Of a stretch of DNA of 64,000 nt, positions 7,717 through 31,622 are shown in pieces (the first letter of the stretch is position 1; every line of letters begins with the position of its first letter). The position numbers were made by a program, and so were the translations under genes. Origin of the DNA: a virus. The stretch lies in the IMG/VR virus record IMGVR_UViG_3300047546_001263, positions 1 to 64,000 of that record. One strand, written 5' to 3'. The notes beneath the pieces were generated by a model, which worked only from the letters and a program-made list of their open reading frames with translations, made no database searches and was not told the origin of the DNA.

Positions 7717-8427
7717 TTAGTTGCGACATTTTCCTGCTAATTCTATATTCTTATAGAACTCAGCTCTACAAGAATCTTCTTTTAAGAATGCTCCTGAAAG
7801 TTTAGCTGTCTGCATTGATGCTCCATTATGTTTAGTACCTCGGCAAGATACACAATTATGTGTTGCATCTACCATTACAGCTACTCCTTCGTTACCTTCG
7901 CAGATCTTATCAATAGCATGATGAATAGCTACTGTTAATTGCTCTTGGATAGCTCCTCGACGACCGAAGTATTCTACAATACGGTTTAGTTTAGATAATC
8001 CAATAACCTTACCGTCTTTTCCTGGGATGTAAGCAACACTAACTCGACCTTGAATAGTCTGGTGATGGTGAGAACACATAGAGGTTAGTGGTATATTACT
8101 CTCCTGTACTAACCCGTCATAACCGTCTGATGGAAATGCTGTAATTTCTGGTGGTGCTGAGAATCGACCTGCCCATAAGTCGTTTACATATGCTTTTGCT
8201 ACTCGACGTGGAGTGTCGGATGAGTTTGGATCATTTCTCCAATCACACCCCAAAGCATCTAAGAACTTACCGAATGCTTCTGCAGCGTTTGAGATAATTT
8301 CATATTTCTCAGAGTCGGTAAGATGAACATCTACCATTTTACTAATTTTTTGCTTCTCAGCTAACTGTGTGGATAAACCATTTGCGTAACCTGCTTCGGT
8401 TACCTCTAACGAATACTTCTTCTTCAT
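7717..8427 (-). CDS. folE: GTP cyclohydrolase I (FolE)
   Basis: 236 residues. FolE converts GTP to 7,8-dihydroneopterin triphosphate, the first step of 7-deazaguanine synthesis (and of folate). Zinc and catalytic residues are present: Cys118 and His121 in CSHHHQTI, then HNCVSCRG with Cys192 and Cys195; VIGLSKLNRIVEYFGRR and QEQLT are family signatures. The N-terminal 40 residues are extra and variable. It is preceded by its own promoter (8472-8502) and by a 26-nt leader block shared with the gene at 11502. Together with QueD, QueE and QueC it completes the route to preQ0. Confidence 0.96.
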   Translation of the reverse strand: MKKKYSLEVTEAGYANGLSTQLAEKQKISKMVDVHLTDSEKYEIISNAAEAFGKFLDALGCDWRNDPNSSDTPRRVAKAYVNDLWAGRFSAPPEITAFPSDGYDGLVQESNIPLTSMCSHHHQTIQGRVSVAYIPGKDGKVIGLSKLNRIVEYFGRRGAIQEQLTVAIHHAIDKICEGNEGVAVMVDATHNCVSCRGTKHNGASMQTAKLSGAFLKEDSCRAEFYKNIELAGKCRN

Positions 8428-10235: not shown

Positions 10236-11018
10236 TTACACAGCTCTTTTAGTGTCGAAAGCAATAATATGCTCTCTACCTGTAAATCGGTATGCATTTT
10301 GAGTACACCATTCTATAACTAAAGGATAAACTCTAATTAACTCTTGACGATTATCTCCTGGAGGCATTATAATTACCTTATTTTTAGGTATCTCTAACTC
10401 ATCCAACCAAGCTCTTGTCTCTAACCATTCTTCAGGTCTCTCTACTGGATTAGCTACGATTTTAACGTGGTAATCTTTATGGTATGCCAATGTCTCTTTA
10501 ATTGCTTCTTTATTGAGACGATGCCTGTTGTGCGTGTCAATAAGCTTCTGGTCTGTAACTGCACCTTGAGGAGTAAGTACGCCCAATACAGGCACACTAT
10601 TGGTAAACTTAGGACTAAGACTAATAAGGTCAATAGGATAGTCGGTAGCGAGGAAATGGCTTCCTTCAGTTTCGATGGTAATAATGATACCTCTTTCATG
10701 AGCAAAATGTGTTAATTCGTTAACTAAAGCTGGATGCATTGTTGGTGAACCCCCTGTTAACATCATCTCCTTCACTTCTGGGTTCTCATCGTATATCTTA
10801 ACGATATCGTTGAAATTATAAATACCTTTTTCTGGATGTATACTGGTATACCAAGAGTCGCACCATCCGCCTTCTCCAAAGTAACAACGGTGAGTACAAC
10901 CTGTAGTTCTAATTGCTACAGTTGGATAGCCAGCTCTTGAACCTTCTGATTGTACGCAAGTGTACAATTCTACGATAGGTAACTTTTTACTATAATCTGT
11001 AATTCTTCCTAAACTCAT
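10236..11018 (-). CDS. queE: QueE, 7-carboxy-7-deazaguanine synthase (radical SAM)
   Basis: 260 residues. QueE rearranges 6-carboxy-tetrahydropterin to 7-carboxy-7-deazaguanine using SAM and a 4Fe-4S cluster. LYTCVQSEGSRAGYPTVAIRTTGC matches the family, with the SAM-binding MMLTGGSP and ETEGS downstream. The cluster-binding cysteines read C41-x3-C45-x7-C53 in place of the canonical CX3CX2C, meaning an insertion of FGEGG-like residues between the second and third ligand; CX14CX2C variants of QueE are known, so an altered motif is tolerated. It follows QueD by 11 nt. Confidence 0.93.
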   Translation of the reverse strand: MSLGRITDYSKKLPIVELYTCVQSEGSRAGYPTVAIRTTGCTHRCYFGEGGWCDSWYTSIHPEKGIYNFNDIVKIYDENPEVKEMMLTGGSPTMHPALVNELTHFAHERGIIITIETEGSHFLATDYPIDLISLSPKFTNSVPVLGVLTPQGAVTDQKLIDTHNRHRLNKEAIKETLAYHKDYHVKIVANPVERPEEWLETRAWLDELEIPKNKVIIMPPGDNRQELIRVYPLVIEWCTQNAYRFTGREHIIAFDTKRAV

Positions 11019-11029
11019 TATTTTTTATT

Positions 11030-11491
11030 TTATGCTTGATAAGATGCAGAATTTCTTTCGTGTTCGTAAACTTCTACTTTTACAGCTTTTACTCGTCCTT
11101 CGGTTTCTGCTTCTAAGAACTCATTAATTTCGTTATACAGATACTCTGCAAATCTTTCACAACCGGTTGCAGGTAAAATACGTAACTGAATAATACCGTC
11201 TTCATCCATCTGTTTAAAGTTCTCTAAATATGGATCATCCTCTGCTACTATTGTAGTATGGTCTAATAAGTAGTTAAAGAAGTCTTTAGGTGAACTACCG
11301 TACATAGTAGTCTTTGCTCTCTTCATTCCTCCAAAGTCCCATACCCAGTTACGTTCGTCTAGTTCTCCTTCGAACCATACTCTAAAAGATACTGCGTATC
11401 CGTGAAGAAACTTACAGTGAGTTCCTTCTGCTTTCCATTGACGAAAACAGGTAGAGTATCCGTCAAATAATTTTGTTGATTGAAATTTCAT
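11030..11491 (-). CDS. queD: QueD, 6-carboxy-tetrahydropterin synthase (PTPS family)
   Basis: 153 residues, T-fold. It makes 6-carboxy-5,6,7,8-tetrahydropterin from the FolE product. Landmarks are GTHCKFLHGY (residues 23-32), WDFGGMK, DHTTIVAEDDPYLE, GCERFAEYLYNEI and EVYEHERNSASY. The usual zinc motif HGH reads HGY here, and the first ligand region reads YSTCFRQW, so the metal site deviates from E. coli QueD; related phage enzymes seem to share this. It sits 11 nt before QueE, forming the queD-queE pair. Confidence 0.92.
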   Translation of the reverse strand: MKFQSTKLFDGYSTCFRQWKAEGTHCKFLHGYAVSFRVWFEGELDERNWVWDFGGMKRAKTTMYGSSPKDFFNYLLDHTTIVAEDDPYLENFKQMDEDGIIQLRILPATGCERFAEYLYNEINEFLEAETEGRVKAVKVEVYEHERNSASYQA

Positions 11492-13628: not shown

Positions 13629-13665
13629 ACTCTTATAAATAGAACTTAATTATTTTTACTAGACG

Positions 13666-13739
13666 TGGACCAACCTGGGCTCGAACCAGGGACCTACTGA
13701 TTATGAGTCAGGTGCTCTAACCAACTGAGCTATAAGTCC
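13666..13739 (-). tRNA. tRNA-Met(CAT), elongator type
   Basis: A full cloverleaf reads from 13739 down: acceptor GGACTTA/TTGGTCC (one T-T mismatch), D arm GCTC-AGTTGGTTA-GAGC, anticodon loop CTCATAA, T arm CCTGG-TTCGAGC-CCAGG, discriminator A. No CCA is encoded. It lacks the initiator C1-A72 mismatch, so it is elongator Met (tRNA-Ile with modified C34 is possible). Confidence 0.9.
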
Positions 13740-13744
13740 AAGTG

Positions 13745-13913
13745 CTGTAGGGGAAGGAGTCGAACCTTCACGCGGCGATTCAATAAATGACATTTTTGCT
13801 AGCTAGCGTGTGGTCAACCCATTATCATTTATCTATCTCTTATCCGCACCCTCGAGACGGGAGGGCATGTCTGCCACGACCGGGGACACCCCAATCCATT
13901 CCACCACCCTACA
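13745..13913 (-). ncRNA. 169-nt tRNA-like RNA with expanded D loop and variable arm
   Basis: The ends form a perfect tRNA acceptor (TGTAGGG/CCCTACA) next to a perfect T arm (GAAGG-TTCGACT-CCTTC). The 5' part (TGGTGGAATGG and GCAGACAT) aligns with tRNA-Leu. A ~22-nt insertion in the D loop contains a GGGG-TGT-CCCC hairpin. The anticodon stem CCCTC/GAGGG encloses CCGTCTC, which lacks the universal U33 and would give GUC. The variable arm (GCGG/CCGC) holds ~70 nt, itself able to pair (ATAAATGA with TCATTTAT). It could be a degenerate tRNA-Leu, a tRNA mimic or a new tRNA-like regulatory RNA. It lies between tRNA-Leu and tRNA-Met. Confidence 0.55.
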
Positions 13914-13928
13914 ATAAAAAAAGAAACG

Positions 13929-14014
13929 TACCTCGAGCCAGAGTCGAACTGGCACGGGCGTTTCTGCCCACAAGATTTTAAGTCTTGCATGTCTACCTAT
14001 TCCATCATCGAGGC
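13929..14014 (-). tRNA. tRNA-Leu(TAA)
   Basis: 86 nt, class II. Acceptor GCCTCGA/TCGAGGT, anticodon stem CAAGA/TCTTG with loop CTTAAAA (anticodon TAA), long variable arm GGGC-AGAAAC-GCCC, T arm GCCAG-TTCGACT-CTGGC, discriminator A. It directly follows the large structured RNA region in the direction of transcription. Confidence 0.93.
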
Positions 14015-14029
14015 AGGTACGTTTATTTA

Positions 14030-14908
14030 AGTAAGCCTGAGACTACAGCTCTAACGCTAGATCTTTTGAGGTATTATCTTAATTCCCCTCTTGTCCAGAG
14101 ACTTTTGATCTCTATTCTAGCAATGCTGGTTATTTAGGTGAACCACTCCTTGAGCTACTTATTATTTGGACTACTCTCTCCCTACTCGTCTCTATTCAAA
14201 TCTGCCGACCTGATTAACCCTTGCGAGGCTATAGAACTTTCTAGAGAATCACTCTTGACTTGCGATCTTAAGTGGCACTGAACAGCTCAGTACTATGTAA
14301 GCATCTTTCGTCCGTAGCTGGCAAGCGCTTTTGCTTTTATGATTATGTATTTTTGAAAATGCAATAATTCAAAAGTTAGCGACTTGTGGATTGTAAAGGT
14401 AGCGGCCTGCCCTAAGCTCTCTTAACTTTTGATCAAGAGAATACTTAACTACCTTTTGAAGTGTCCCCACCTCCATACTTTAAGATATCTTCATAACTAA
14501 CATCTTGGTAGATGCTTGCTAAGGTAGATAACAGCACCACCTGTACACCTACTTGCCTTTCAGCTTTAAGATACCTCTTATATTGAGCAACGCAATAATA
14601 TACTTGGATAAGTATACTTCTTGCAAATACCCTACAGGTTAATCTTATTACTCTTCCGAGCTCAACTAAACGACCCACATCGCCTAGTCACTAAACCACT
14701 TTCCCTAAAGTGTTACCCTCAGTACTTAAGGTTTAATGATACCCTGCTTGCATACTTAAGCTCTTGCGAGCCGCAAACTACTTCAGTCAAAGTAGCTCAC
14801 TTTACACCAGTTTCCTGGTTTATTTACCGACTATATGCCGCCGAATGTTATTTATGATTTAGCCGAAGCTTCATCAATGGATAACAATGTTTTCAAAGAA
14901 CGTTTTAT
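14030..14908 (-). ncRNA. Large (~880 nt) structured non-coding RNA, GOLLD/ROOL-like in context
   Basis: The region has a promoter (14914-14944), no convincing ORF on either strand, and dense local pairing when read on the minus strand: GNRA hairpins ACCAG-GAAA-CTGGT (14806-14819) and GCTC-GCAA-GAGC (14760-14771), CACTTT-AGGG-AAAGTG (14697-14712), a 7-bp stem at 14599-14616 inside GCAA/TTGC (14592-14624), AAAGGTAG pairing with CTACCTTT (14395-14402 with 14449-14456) enclosing TCTCTT/AAGAGA, and AGAGA-TCAAAAG-TCTCT (14097-14113). It runs straight into tRNA-Leu. Large phage RNAs GOLLD and ROOL have this size and lie near tRNAs. Membership or novelty needs a covariance-model search. Confidence 0.7.
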
Positions 14909-16169: not shown

Positions 16170-16176
16170 GGAATTG

Positions 16177-16559
16177 TGGAGATGGAGGGAGTCGAACCCT
16201 CGTCCAAATACGGATTTAATAAACCTCATTCACAAGCTTAGTTAATTTTTCTAAATTAACAAAATATAAAGTTTGATATATGTGGGAACCAAACTTTCAA
16301 ACAACCTGGTCTCGAAATTATTTAATAGAGCTCCGACCTGTTACTCCAACTCTCACTTCTTTTTAAATTCCCATGAGTGATACGGGAAAGATTAGGCAGC
16401 TACTGCGTAATCAGCACCTACGAAAGCCATAGCGTCTTCGAAAGTGAAAGAAGATAATTCTTCTGCGTTTATTGTTTGATAGGTGTTTAAGGATTTCCAT
16501 CTAATCCTGCTTGCATCAATTGTACCAACTCATCGTACCTGTCAAAACCGGGCATCCCC
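16177..16559 (-). ncRNA. ssrA: tmRNA (ssrA)
   Basis: The 5' end GGGGATGCCCGGTTTTGACAGG-type start (from 16559) pairs with the 3' end CATCTCC (16178-16184). This forms the tRNA-like acceptor and includes the G3-U70 pair that alanyl-tRNA synthetase recognises. The T arm is GAGGG-TTCGACT-CCCTC. The tag frame (16466-16392) encodes 24 residues, beginning AEELSSFTFEDAM and ending GADYAVAA, then TAA. tmRNA rescues stalled ribosomes and tags the product for proteolysis. The tag ends AVAA, not the common ALAA, and is longer than most. It is flanked by tRNA-Thr and tRNA-Glu in one likely precursor. Confidence 0.93.
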
Positions 16560-17016: not shown

Positions 17017-17856
17017 TTACTTGATATGTTCTGCTAAAACTTTTTCTACATGGGATTTAGCTACTTCCCATTCAACTGGTCCTGTCTCGTCTTCGTATTG
17101 AACAGGATCTTTACGGCCCAACTTAATAAAAGCTTCAATACGCTCCACAGAGCTAGCAGACTTATAGTCGCTATTACCAGAAGGGTAAGGCTTATATGAA
17201 GTGTTAGTTCTCTTGTACACCTCATCAAAGTCCAAACCGAGTGTTTCACATGCTTTAAGTCCATCTTCTAGAATACCAAATTTATCTGTATCTAAATAGG
17301 GAGTATAAAACTTAACACGTTCTGCATCCCAGTTACCAATTCTAAATGCTTCCATATCTGCATCTCTAAACTCTTGACGACAGTCAGGGTAGATTGCATG
17401 ATCTCCAGCATGGATACCTAGAGAAATAAAGGTATCTTCTTTTGTTTCGTTTGCTACTGATAAAGCTACTGCTTGTACTAGTGAGCTAAAGATCTTATTA
17501 CGATTAGGCACAACAGTATCTTTCATGTTGTCTTGTTCGTAATGACCTTCCGGCACATCTTTACCTCCTTCAACTAATGCTGAATTTAGTAGTTCTTTTA
17601 AACCGTCCAACTTAATAATCTGATGTGTTGGTGGTAAGAAAGAGTAATTTTTATCGTTATCAAACGGTGGATGCATAGCATTCCATTGCTCATTAATATA
17701 CTCTACTAATGATGTTGCACGTTCTAACTCTACTCTATGTTTCTGACCGTAATCAAAAGATAAAGTAGTAACTCTGTAGCCATTTGCTAACAAATGTAGT
17801 AACAAGGTAGAGGAGTCCATCCCTCCAGATAAGGACAATACAGCATTCTTCGCCAT
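17017..17856 (-). CDS. queC: QueC, 7-cyano-7-deazaguanine (preQ0) synthase, zinc ligands replaced
   Basis: 279 residues. QueC uses ATP and ammonia to turn 7-carboxy-7-deazaguanine into preQ0. The PP-loop is LSLSGGMDSSTLL (SGGMDSS at residues 10-16), with LSFDYGQKHRVEL, VVPNRNKIF and IHAGDHAIYPDCR following. The C-terminal zinc cluster of standard QueC (Cys-x8ish-Cys-x2-Cys-x2-Cys) is absent: the equivalent positions read Ser220 (TSY), Asp230, Ser233 and Ser236. The only cysteines are in the core. The fold otherwise looks complete, so a zinc-independent variant is likely. It is separated from queD/queE by the RNA island. Confidence 0.92.
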   Translation of the reverse strand: MAKNAVLSLSGGMDSSTLLLHLLANGYRVTTLSFDYGQKHRVELERATSLVEYINEQWNAMHPPFDNDKNYSFLPPTHQIIKLDGLKELLNSALVEGGKDVPEGHYEQDNMKDTVVPNRNKIFSSLVQAVALSVANETKEDTFISLGIHAGDHAIYPDCRQEFRDADMEAFRIGNWDAERVKFYTPYLDTDKFGILEDGLKACETLGLDFDEVYKRTNTSYKPYPSGNSDYKSASSVERIEAFIKLGRKDPVQYEDETGPVEWEVAKSHVEKVLAEHIK

Positions 17857-26910: not shown

Positions 26911-27666
26911 TTAAGAAACACAAGTAAATCCGTAGTTTATTGAATAAGTACAGCCACCGAATGTATTAACATACCCGCCAACAACACATACATTTTGAGA
27001 TTGGTAAGCTCCTAAGTAATAACTTTGATAAGATCCACCGCAAGCTGTATATGCAACAAAGCCTCCACAGGTTCCTCCGTTTACTTGCATATAATAGCAA
27101 ACTTGAGTAGTTGGTGCTCCGTATCCTGAAGGAGGAGCGACTGGTGAAGGTGTTGGGCTTGGAGTAACTGGACTAGGTGTTACCGGAGCTGCTGTTGGTG
27201 CTGCTGTTGGTGACGGAGTTACAGGTGCTGCTGTCGGAGCTGCAGTAGGACTAGGGGTTACCGGTGCGGCTGTTGGACTAGCTGTTGGACTAGCTGTAGG
27301 ACTAGGAGTAGGAGATTCAGACGGTGGAGCTGTTGGACTAGGAGTCGGTGATGGTGTTACTGGAGCGGCAGTTGGGGCAGGTGTTGGAGCTGGTGTTACT
27401 GGAGCGGCAGTTGGAGCGGCTGTTGGAGCAGGTGTAGGTACTATAGAATACACAAATAAATCTTCTGTACTACATTTACCTGTACTTTTAACATATAACA
27501 CATGGTACAGAGTATCTACATCTATATAATACCCGTCTACTAATTGCTGTCTTGTTACTCCAGTTGCAATTCTATTAGGGGCTGATATAGCTGTATGATA
27601 TACATCAAAAGGTCCTACTGTAGATCCTGCTGTTGTAATCTGTATTTTTAATGTTCTATTTGCCAT
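26911..27666 (-). CDS. Pro/Thr/Ala-repeat fibre-like protein with Cys-rich C-terminus
   Basis: 251 residues without signal peptide. An N-terminal ~80-residue domain ([20 protein letters not shown]) is followed by ~100 residues of [11 protein letters not shown]-type repeats and a C-terminal Cys/Gly/Tyr-rich domain ([20 protein letters not shown]). The N-terminal domain is related to that of the next gene. The repeats are rich in AP, SP, TP and VP dipeptides, which resemble the preferred hydroxylation contexts of plant hydroxyproline-rich glycoproteins. I interpret it as a fibre or adhesin and a candidate substrate of the prolyl-hydroxylase/glycosyltransferase genes at 34191-40666. Confidence 0.7.
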
Positions 27667-27673
27667 TTAATTA

Positions 27674-28447
27674 CTATTGAATAGCTTCTACTTGACCTGA
27701 TCCTGGGGCTGGAGTTTCGCCTCCATAGCCTATAGTTGGTGCGAATCCACCACCACCACCTCCTCCACCTCCGGTAGGTGCTGGTGCGGTTGGTTCAGGT
27801 GTAACTGGACTAGGTGTTACAGGGCTAGGAGTAACTGGTGCTGGGTAAGTTGGACTAGGAGCTGGTGCTACTGGATTACTTACCGGGCTTGATACTGGTG
27901 ATGCATATACAGGAGCAGGGTTAGGTGCTGTAGTAGGTGCTGCTGTTGGTTCCGGAGTTACTGGTGCTGGAGTAACTGGAGCAGGAGTAACTGGAGCAGG
28001 AGTAGTTGGTTCCGGAGTTACTGGACTAGGTGTTACCGGAGCTGCTGTTGGTTCCGGAGTTACTGGTGCAGGAGTAACTGGTGCTGGAGTTACAGGAGCT
28101 GGAGTTACAGGAGCTGGAGTAACTGGTGCTGCTGTAGGGCTAGCAGTCGGGCTAGGAGTCGGAGCTGCTGTTGGACTAGGAGTAGGAGCTGCTGTAGGTG
28201 CAGCTGTAGGTGCACCTGTTGGTACAGTTAAATTAGCTACTCCTGTATTCCCACATACACCATTACTAACTACATAGAAGTCGTTTGTACCATCTGGTAC
28301 AGTTATATTAAATGGAGTAGTCATCTGGGTTCTTGTAAGTCCAGAGATTACTAGGTTAGACGGATTATTTGGATCAGTATGATAGAGTGAAAACGGACCT
28401 GCGTCTGTTCCTATCGATGTTCCTGTTATAGTTACTGTTATTGGCAT
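27674..28447 (-). CDS. Pro/Thr/Ala-repeat fibre-like protein
   Basis: 257 residues. The N-terminal domain (VTITGTSIGTDAGPFSLYHT, with a GVCGNTG Cys) is homologous to that of the 26911-27666 protein, showing duplication. It is followed by a long [15 protein letters not shown]-type repeat tract and a Gly-rich C-terminus (TGGGGGGGGGFAPTIGYGG). A TATTTAT-like element lies in the spacer upstream (around 28473-28481). It is probably part of the same fibre complex and a candidate for proline hydroxylation. Confidence 0.7.
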   Translation of the reverse strand: MPITVTITGTSIGTDAGPFSLYHTDPNNPSNLVISGLTRTQMTTPFNITVPDGTNDFYVVSNGVCGNTGVANLTVPTGAPTAAPTAAPTPSPTAAPTPSPTASPTAAPVTPAPVTPAPVTPAPVTPAPVTPEPTAAPVTPSPVTPEPTTPAPVTPAPVTPAPVTPEPTAAPTTAPNPAPVYASPVSSPVSNPVAPAPSPTYPAPVTPSPVTPSPVTPEPTAPAPTGGGGGGGGGFAPTIGYGGETPAPGSGQVEAIQ

Positions 28448-28490
28448 CTTTCTTTATTTAATATAACGATTTCTAATAAATAGTCAAACT

Positions 28491-28706
28491 TTAAATTGCT
28501 GAAAGTATCTCAGCTTTTTTAGCTATGTATTCTTCCTCTGTTGCAGTTATAAAAGGTCCTTGTGCTAATACATTATCGTATAATGTAGAATTACCTCCAT
28601 CATGTCTGATTAACATCTGACCTTCTTTGACTAAACATACTGTCAAGCTTTTTGTTTCGTCGTCTAATTTTATTACTCTATCTGAGTCTTTTAAGTATTG
28701 TATCAT
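28491..28706 (-). CDS. Small hypothetical protein between fibre genes
   Basis: 71 residues, soluble, with KVIKLDDETKSLT-like strands (RVIKLDDETKSLTVCLVKEG) and a C-terminal helix TEEEYIAKKAEILSAI. Its position between two repeat-protein genes suggests a structural or assembly role, such as a fibre chaperone, but no family is recognised. Confidence 0.55.
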   Translation of the reverse strand: MIQYLKDSDRVIKLDDETKSLTVCLVKEGQMLIRHDGGNSTLYDNVLAQGPFITATEEEYIAKKAEILSAI

Positions 28707-28721
28707 ATCTTTAGTTTAATT

Positions 28722-31622
28722 TTATGCAAATTCTTCAGGTCCGCCACCACAAGATACACAAGAGTAATCACATGGTCCTACTTGAGCTTGACATCCATAT
28801 CCACAATCACAGTTATAATATCCTCCTGTTGGTGGTGGTATGTAAATTGGGGCTGCTTGTGGTGCTGGGGTATTTCCACAGAAGAACATACAATCTGCAA
28901 AAGAAGTAAATTCTCCTGCTCCTGGGTTAGAATAACAGTTTCCATTTCCATCACATGACCAGTCGTAAGTTACTACTGGAGCTGCTGTAGGTGAAGCTGT
29001 CGGACTAGCTGTTGGACTAGCTGTAGGAGCTGGATATGGAGCTGGTGTTACAGGAGCGGCTGTAGGGCTAGCTGTCGGACTAGGAGTCGGAGCGGCTGTA
29101 GGGCTAGCAGTTGGCGCTGGTGTAACTGGTGCTGCTGTAGGAGCTGCTGTAGGAGCTGGTGTTACAGGAGCGGCAGTAGGTGCAGCTGTTGGTGCCGGAG
29201 TCACAGGAGCGGCAGTAGGTGCAGCTGTTGGTGCCGGAGTCACAGGAGCTGCTGTAGGTGCACTGGTTGGGCTAGCTGTAACTGGAGCTGGATATACCGG
29301 ACTAGGTGTAGTTGGAGCTGCTGTAGGAGCTGCCGTTGGACTAGCTGTAGGTGAAGGAGTTACAGGAGCTGGAGTAACTGGTGCTGGAGTAACTGGTGCT
29401 GGAGTTACAGGAGCGGCTGTTGGAGCTGCTGTTGGTTCAGCAGTCGGACTAGGTGTAACTGGTGCTGCTGTAGGTTCTGAAGTCACAATTGGACTAGGTG
29501 TTACAGGAGATCCTCCACCTCCTTCAAATCCGGCTGGTGCAGGGTTAAATCCTCCGCATGAACCTAAACATTCATTATAGGTATAGCTACCAACTCCTGG
29601 TCCCATATAAACACAGCTACCGTTTATACAGTCATAATCAAATGATGAAAATGGTGCTGAAATCGGAGCTGAAACTGGTGCTGCTGTTGGTTCAGCAGTC
29701 GGACTAGGAGTTGGACTAGGTGTTACCGGTGAAGGATATACTGGGCTAGGTGTTACCGGTGATGGAGTAACTGGTGCTGCTGTAGGTGCTGCTGTAGGAG
29801 AAGCTGTCGGACTAGGAGTCGATACCGGAGCTGGATATCCAGGGGCAGGTGTTACTGGTGCTGGTGTTACTGGACTAGGAGTCGGTGCGGCTGTTGGTGA
29901 AGCTGTAATTGCAACACAATATTGACTACATTCTTGTAATGTACTATAAGATCCTGCTCCTGGTCCCATATAAGTACATTGACCATCTACGCAATCCCAA
30001 TCAAAAGAAGAGGCTGTAGGACTTGGTACAACTGTTGGTTCAGGTGTTACAGGAGCTGCTGTCGGACTAGGAGTCGGACTAGGTGTTACTGGTGAAGCAT
30101 ATGAAGGACTAGATACCGGAGCCGATACTGGGCTAGGGGTTACTGGTGCTGGTGTTGTAGGAGCAGGTGTTACGTCAGTAGGGGCTGGAGTTGTAGGAGA
30201 TGGTGTTACTGGTGAAGCATATGAAGGACTAGATACCGGAGCCGATACCGGACTAGGGGTAGTAGGAGCTGGTGTAACTCCAGTAGGTGCTGGAGTTGTA
30301 GGAGATGATACCGGTGATACATAAGTAGGACTAGGTGTTACTGGTGATGGAGTAACTGGTGATGGAGTAACTGGTGATGGAGTAACTGGTGCTGGTGTTG
30401 GACTAACTATTAAACATCCACCATCAGTAGTACAAGTACCACCTTGTTCAAATATGTAAGCTCCACCTGTTACTTCTACACCTCCTTGAATAAAGACTGG
30501 GATATTATATGGAGAAGTTAAGCTTACGCAAATTCCAGCAGTATACGTACCGTCTCCATTATCCATAGTATCTAAACTATTGATTAACCGATCTGTTACT
30601 ATATCATCATAAGATGTTCTATATCTTACATATAAGTCATTCGGTACAGTACTGTATGTTATTGTATAGCAATTACCTGTAGGTAATACCGGAGCCGGTG
30701 TTGGACTAGGAGTCGGTGCAGCTGTCGGTGCTGCTGTAGGAGCTGGTGTTACTGGTGCAGCGGTAGGTTCAGCAGTTGGTGACGGAGTCACAGGAGCTGG
30801 TGTTACCGGAGCTGGTGTTACTGGAGCATTAGTTGGAGCAGCAGTAGGTTCTGCAGTCGGACTAGGAGTTACCGGTGCGGCAGTAGGTTCAGCAGTTGGT
30901 GACGGAGTCACAGGAGCTGCTGTTGGAGCATTAGTCGGTGCTGGTGTTGGACTAGGAGTAGGAGCTGTAGTAGGACTAGGAGTTGGTGCAGCAGTAGGAG
31001 CGCTAGTTGGTGCTGCTGTCGGGGCAGGGGTATTTAATAAAGCAATAAACTTAATATCACATTCTGCTCCTGTTATATCTAAGGTACAATCTCTTTCAAA
31101 TACAGCATATAAAGTATTAATACTACTACTATAAGGTACGTTAATTAAATGGTTGGTTGAATAAGTAGGAAAGTTAATATCAAATGCAGCAGCTCCTTGA
31201 GGGCGTGCTGAGTTCCATTTTCTACCTGTTACCCATTTCTTAAGTACAAAGCCTGCTGATCCGGTAGCTAAATAACTAGCAGACGGGTAAGGTTCATAAA
31301 TAAAAACTTTATTAGATCCAGAAATACCACCTTCGTATTGTTGTGCATATGAAGAAGTAAGTGCTGGACCTACTAATCTAACTGCTCCTGTTGGAAACAT
31401 TACTGCAGATCCGTCTGTGTCTGAACCTGTTACAAATGCATTGAAGTAGAAGCCCCATTTACCGCGAAAATAATCCATATCATCTTCGACTGTATAAAAG
31501 CCTTGTCTAGCTGGCCAGACATGTGAATGCAGACCCTGTAAATCATTTTCAACAAGAAAATCATTTAAGTGATCGTCAACATTTATTCCACTACCGGTAT
31601 TGGGGAACTGATAACTTGGCAT
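28722..31622 (-). CDS. Large Pro/Thr/Ala-repeat tail fibre with Cys modules
   Basis: 966 residues. The first ~200 residues are a globular head ([33 protein letters not shown]) typical of an attachment domain. The rest alternates long tracts of [18 protein letters not shown]-like repeats with small Cys domains: three of the type W/Y-x-C-x-(D/N)G-x-C-Y-x-GPG-x-x-Y...C...C near residues 560, 700 and 915, a ~95-residue one near 330-430, and a Cys-rich end ([18 protein letters not shown]). The repeat tracts are extended, rich in AP/SP/TP, and free of charged residues, like plant arabinogalactan proteins or mucins. TATTTATA at 31648-31655 precedes the ATG. Confidence 0.75.

Follow-up and report, generated by a model that had tools for sequence, protein, structure and literature searches.

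A 169-nt tRNA-like RNA, encoded on the minus strand of a 101-kb uncultivated phage contig and read from 13913 to 13745, is, on sequence comparison, a member of a conserved and previously unannotated family of non-coding RNAs of Bacteroidota and their phages. Positions refer to the window, the whole stretch of 64,000 nt that was analysed. The RNAs of this family are almost certainly real, structured and non-decoding. The window copy is flanked by tRNA-Leu(UAA) and tRNA-Met and lies downstream of a GOLLD RNA (Table 1).

The RNA had been proposed at this position in an earlier note, with perfect acceptor and T arms and a tRNA-Leu-like 5′ part. The acceptor and T stems are indeed fully paired (7/7 and 5/5), and the D arm retains a tRNA-Leu-like ancestry. 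The D-loop hairpin, put at about 22 nt, is present but measures 19 nt with 8 bp, and it is not essential. The variable arm, put at about 70 nt, is expanded to ~78 nt; it is made up of a GCGG/CCGC basal stem, an internal loop, a 9-bp stem, the apical hairpin and a palindrome. Of these two insertions, the variable-arm domain is kept in the relatives, whereas the D-loop hairpin is optional across the family. C33, regarded as anomalous, is present in the CCGUCUC loop but is not the essence of it, as position 33 varies freely among the members. Neither ARAGORN nor Rfam (RF00005 included) gave a call at the window copy. Although its folding energy is unremarkable (z = -1.26) and uninformative taken alone, conservation, in the form of 72 IMG/VR matches and the covariation described below, places the window copy far beyond chance.

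Table 1. Anatomy of the tRNA-like RNA and its immediate neighbours in the window.
Feature	Position	Strand	Remark
Whole tRNA-like RNA, acceptor 5′ end to discriminator G73	13745..13913	-	CM R1 match of 150.1 bits to 13744-13914
G73; conserved C74	13745; 13744	-	
Acceptor stem 5′ strand UGUAGGG	13907..13913	-	U1 and G2 almost invariant in the family
Acceptor stem 3′ strand CCCUACA, followed by G73 and C74	13746..13752	-	
Optional 8-bp hairpin (19 nt) inserted in the D loop	13878..13896	-	Absent or different in many relatives
Anticodon arm, 5-bp stem and 7-nt loop CCGUCUC	13849..13865	-	
GUC at anticodon positions 34-36	13856..13858	-	
Expanded variable arm, ~78 nt	13770..13847	-	Covarying pairs
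Conserved apical hairpin UGGG-UUGA-CC(A)CA with bulged A	13809..13821	-	
Perfect 10-nt palindrome GCUAGCUAGC	13798..13807	-	Predicted kissing/dimer site
T arm GAAGG-UUCGACU-CCUUC	13753..13769	-	
Ordinary tRNA-Leu(UAA)	13928..14014	-	Neighbour
Ordinary tRNA-Met	13665..13739	-	Neighbour
GOLLD RNA	14034..14456	-	Rfam RF02032, 271.5 bits; directly upstream of tRNA-Leu and the tRNA-like RNA

Relatives of the window copy were found in more than 100 uncultivated phage contigs, from which 127 distinct phage sequences were gathered. A 26-base pattern for the anticodon arm matches 72 IMG/VR stretches; two patterns that leave this arm out match 56 and 18 viral stretches, including members with other stem sequences. 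The family is not phage-specific. A pattern scan of bacterial genomes gave at least 119 stretches that carry it, and among the matches listed every bacterial carrier with a named group belongs to the Bacteroidota sensu lato (Cytophagales, Saprospirales, Chitinophagales, a few Flavobacteriales and one Ignavibacteriales), the remaining stretches being labelled just Bacteroidetes or bacterium. By covariance search, 42 of 392 Bacteroidota genomes are carriers, and 40 non-carrier genomes searched again with laxer filters still gave no copy. Complete copies score 80-163 bits against at most 61 for ordinary tRNAs. Tandem copies are frequent, with 2-5 per locus; many chromosomal loci have two or three, and Flammeovirga pacifica has five with an exact period of 197 nt (L321, 3687-4631). 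In 65 of the 127 phage stretches a tRNA gene lies within 200 nt of the tRNA-like RNA. GOLLD was considered as an obligate partner and is probably not one, being present in only 2 of 13 other phage stretches.

Searches of existing resources did not return the family. No member was found among named phages by BLAST with the window copy and seven relatives, and an exact T-arm pattern search had no matches. In Rfam 15 no family exceeded its gathering score for the window copy, for 18 chromosomal stretches or for further phage copies. ARAGORN called none of the 127 phage copies, and no description of such an RNA was found in the open-access literature.

Several other features of the window and of related phages were recorded. 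A phage-encoded tmRNA with the tag AEELSSFTFEDAMAFVGADYAVAA is located inside the tRNA cluster (16176-16559, minus strand). An apparent 7-deazaguanine/queuosine pathway is encoded at 7717-8427, 10236-11018, 11030-11491 and 17017-17856 (minus strand); QueE and QueD were assigned by similar annotated phage genes, and the FolE-like and QueC-like genes by eye only. Proteins with very long Thr/Pro/Ala repeats, probably structural or adhesin-like, are encoded at 26911-31622 (minus strand). In the tRNA arrays of three other phages (G013, G015 and G030; L264, L265 and L266), several further tRNA-like matches of 105-160 nt and 30-50 bits represent additional long-insert tRNAs; such inserts may be a wider tendency of these phages.

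The structure of the family was examined in two alignments. In the phage alignment (56 sequences) 93% of the cells pair and 22 of 37 pairs have changed on both sides; in the chromosomal alignment (128 distinct copies) the latter figure is 28 of 37, the alignments from model searches being fitted to the model. None of 500 shuffles reached the observed level of covariation, and every slid control was lower too, which indicates that the structure is under selection. Covariation extends over the acceptor, D, anticodon, basal variable, long variable and T stems, and D-stem position 10-25 is found as G-C, A-U and U-A. The family forms a cloverleaf with a 7-bp acceptor, a 5-bp T stem, a UUC T loop and G18G19, as tRNAs do, and the signature U8, A14, A15-U48, G18G19, UUCGA, read from the alignment, is retained. 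Thus, judged by the alignments, the body is a class-II tRNA shape with covarying stems and a long structured variable arm, of which the internal loop (AAA / CUAA) and the apical hairpin are also conserved. The common core consists of the structured variable-arm domain, the GUC-Y-C loop, G73 and the pairs U1-A72 and G2-C71. Chromosomal forms can be as short as ~110 nt, and the T stem carries a bulge in one clade. In one phage clade (L217, L219, L223, L237 and others) a 7-nt loop, CUC(A/U)GUU, is conserved at the tip of the D-loop hairpin, which resembles a second anticodon arm. Intramolecular GUC/GAC pairing between the anticodon loop and the apical hairpin was considered and dropped, as L183 (no GAC) and L190 (no domain) still keep the loop.

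On the bacterial chromosomes the RNA often appears to be a gene of its own, with its own promoter and terminator. A Bacteroidota-type promoter box, TAnnTTTG, is present within 80 nt upstream of 76 of the 131 chromosomal copies (6 in shuffles), with 32-37 nt the commonest distance from its end to the RNA; 50 of the 131 have an intrinsic terminator downstream (7 in shuffles). Among the matches listed, a divergent Lrp/AsnC regulator stands beside the RNA in 52 of 119 loci, across genera, with SufB next after it in 32; other chromosomal loci have an RluD-like pseudouridine synthase as neighbour. The repetition of a neighbourhood across genera makes the inheritance of the chromosomal copies look vertical, and the phages probably borrowed the gene from the chromosomes. 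A decoy and a stalled-processing bait had been among the suggestions of the earlier note; the vertically kept chromosomal copies argue against a role that is purely anti-host. In the Cyclobacteriaceae a conserved element, AGGTTATTTTGGGTTTATTGTTAATTGACTAAAGC(T)ATG, lies downstream of the copies (L272, L274, L275, L280, L285, L294, L308).

The anticodon loop was compared with that of ordinary tRNAs. The phage loop has the consensus N32-N33-G-U-C-Y-C, with GUC in 127/127 and C38 in 125/127 copies, some sequence sets having been fetched with loop-containing patterns. U33 is found in 75/127 phage copies (59%) and a purine at position 37 in 2/127 (2%); the ordinary tRNAs encoded by these stretches have U33 in 770/776 and the purine in 772/776. 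Among 59 distinct chromosomal copies, which were found by CM and are not directly pattern-dependent, although the model was built from pattern-fetched sequences, U35, C36 and C38 are present in all 59, G34 in 56 and U33 in 47. G73, C74, U1-A72 and G2-C71 are nearly invariant, U1-A72 occurring in 125/127 phage and 59/59 CM-found chromosomal copies. This first pair is tRNA-Asn/Gln-like, and GatCAB relies on it to recognise the Asp-tRNA-Asn and Glu-tRNA-Gln that it amidates.

The strong determinants of aspartate identity are G73, G34, U35, C36 and C38, with the second acceptor pair G2-C71 a minor one (PMC9976931). The strong set is present in the family, save for the three chromosomal exceptions at position 34. 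As far as the alignments tell, the positions read by aspartyl-tRNA synthetase (AspRS) are kept and those needed by the ribosome are not. Since neither U33 nor purine 37 is kept, the RNA would have no part in decoding, which agrees with the non-decoding roles offered in the earlier note. It does not seem to be there for want of tRNA-Asp, as 28 of 51 tRNA-rich stretches encode one.

Other identities were set aside. SerRS or LeuRS identity is wrong at 72, 11-24 and 73 when compared with the identity table (PMC9976931). Queuosine modification was discounted, as tRNA-guanine transglycosylase would suit the loop only with U33 and position 33 is often C, A or G. A missing AsnRS is not the reason for the RNA, asnS being present in 42/42 carrier genomes. 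GatB is encoded in all 42 carriers examined but also in 33/40 non-carriers; thus AsnRS and GatB in the carriers single out no pathway.

Phage members carry a further element. In 41 of 44 distinct phage segments the apical hairpin is followed by a perfect palindrome of 6 nt or more, a count that leaves out loci fetched by a palindrome-like pattern, against 21% of shuffles. Many of the 16 self-complementary forms of its inner four bases are used, so that self-complementarity survives sequence change. Self-complementarity of the loop is unexplained for a hairpin on its own but is accounted for by pairing of two molecules; the palindrome thus suggests RNA dimers. When the variable arm of the window copy was cofolded, a dimer of -35.5 kcal/mol was predicted against 2 x -9.4 for the monomers. 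The phage form probably dimerises; the compact chromosomal forms are mostly without the palindrome. Alternatively, the palindrome may be a protein site at the DNA level.

AspRS is the simplest partner that accounts for the kept positions, and we put it forward tentatively. The transcript would be trimmed like a tRNA and fold as an L. Host AspRS would recognise it through G34-U35-C36-C38 and G73, and perhaps aspartylate it, with no decoding part for the RNA on the ribosome; phage forms would pair with each other via the palindrome. The most likely role would be a regulatory one, as a competing or sensing substrate for AspRS: a resident regulator on the chromosome and, in the phage, a borrowed copy tuning the charging machinery of the host. 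This scheme as a whole, a tRNA mimic docking on or charged by AspRS, is a possible reading short of a likely one. Several points speak against it: the class-II body, with its huge variable arm, is only a putative AspRS substrate, U1-A72 is GlnRS-like and unlike the G1-C72 of tRNA-Asp, G10 is not conserved, and C34 or U34 in 3/59 chromosomal copies makes G34 less than absolute. The bulged T stem of some members and the palindrome mostly missing from the compact chromosomal forms also count against it.

A stand-alone regulatory or scaffold RNA, tRNA-shaped for processing and stability only and serving another protein or RNA, is rather unlikely. The conserved NUC-Y-C loop would then be the site of that other partner or a structural need. 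U35, C36 and C38 are strictly kept while position 34 has exceptions, and the variable-arm internal loop and apical hairpin are conserved too, all of which would suit such an RNA; the coincidence with the full strong Asp set, the distant G73 included, is left unexplained (PMC9976931). Counter-defence by the phage, with the RNA as decoy for a host toxin or nuclease directed at the anticodon loops of tRNAs, we consider improbable. The location beside tRNA genes in tRNA-rich phages would fit, and a loop that stays constant while the rest of the body drifts is what one would expect of bait, but the chromosomal copies stand without phage context in repeated neighbourhoods and the candidate nuclease is hypothetical. 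A genuine aspartate-decoding tRNA with added domains, to which the GUC anticodon, G73 and the intact D/T-loop signature would point, is equally improbable in view of the unkept U33 and R37, the three members with C34 or U34, the clade with the bulged T stem and the ordinary tRNA-Asp often encoded by the same phage. A decaying tRNA-Leu with random insertions, a product of chance or artefact, is practically untenable despite the Leu-like D arm and the adjoining intact tRNA-Leu, as the compensatory changes throughout and hundreds of homologues refute it, in line with the earlier argument against simple decay. The refuting case named in the earlier note, a relative with a normal tRNA-Leu in random decay at this site, does not hold: L003, a nearly identical contig, and L002, which has diverged to 77% identity, carry both tRNA-Leu and the tRNA-like RNA, with its structure intact.

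The RNA was compared with known systems. It shares with bacterial tRNA-Asp GUC at 34-36, C38, G73, G2-C71, the 7-bp acceptor and the 5-bp T stem, and differs in U1-A72 in place of G1-C72, which is important for AspRS, in pyrimidine 37 and the unkept U33, and in its class-II body with a variable domain of 40-100 nt and optional D-loop hairpin. With class-II tRNA-Leu it has in common the D arm GUGGAA..GGCAGACA, a 3-bp D stem and a long variable arm; it has G73 in place of A73, no Leu anticodon and a much larger variable arm, and the CM scores are tens of bits apart. Allo-tRNAs and tRNA-Sec are likewise odd cloverleaves with a long variable arm, but their acceptor/T stems are 8/4, 9/3 or 8/5 against 7/5 here, and here the extra length sits in the D loop and variable arm.

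Synthetase-binding tRNA mimics are already known from mRNA leaders and plant-virus tRNA-like structures. The mRNA mimics that bind AspRS or ThrRS and the viral structures share with the present RNA an anticodon-loop mimic that possibly engages a synthetase for regulation (PMC9976931); the present RNA differs in having a gene to itself and a complete cloverleaf, in occurring in bacteria and DNA phages, and in being located neither in an mRNA nor at the 3′ end of a viral genome. Phage RNAs encoded close to tRNA islands also include GOLLD and ROOL, whose self-association depends in part on kissing loops (PMC12286853); they are unrelated to the present RNA in sequence and structure, several times longer and without a tRNA body. 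GOLLD, ROOL and OLE self-associate; for the tRNA-like RNA, self-pairing is a prediction from sequence. Neither Rfam 15 nor the open-access literature searched contained a stand-alone tRNA mimic that is common to DNA phages and the chromosomes of bacteria and whose phage form has a predicted dimer module.

The combination of AspRS determinants with a U1-A72 acceptor, together with GatB in the carriers, raises a bolder reading, in which a homodimerising, aspartylatable tRNA mimic would define a new regulatory RNA class of bacteria and phages; loaded with Asp or Asn, it might serve in sensing or in some task away from the ribosome. We hold this to be a long shot. About one in ten of the Bacteroidota genomes sampled, and many large Bacteroidota phages, carry the family, which has escaped tRNA finders and Rfam. 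If AspRS is engaged, bacteria would possess a natural RNA that targets a synthetase as a stand-alone molecule, common to chromosomes and phages, and the old question of the role of odd phage tRNA-like RNAs would become directly testable in cultivable hosts.
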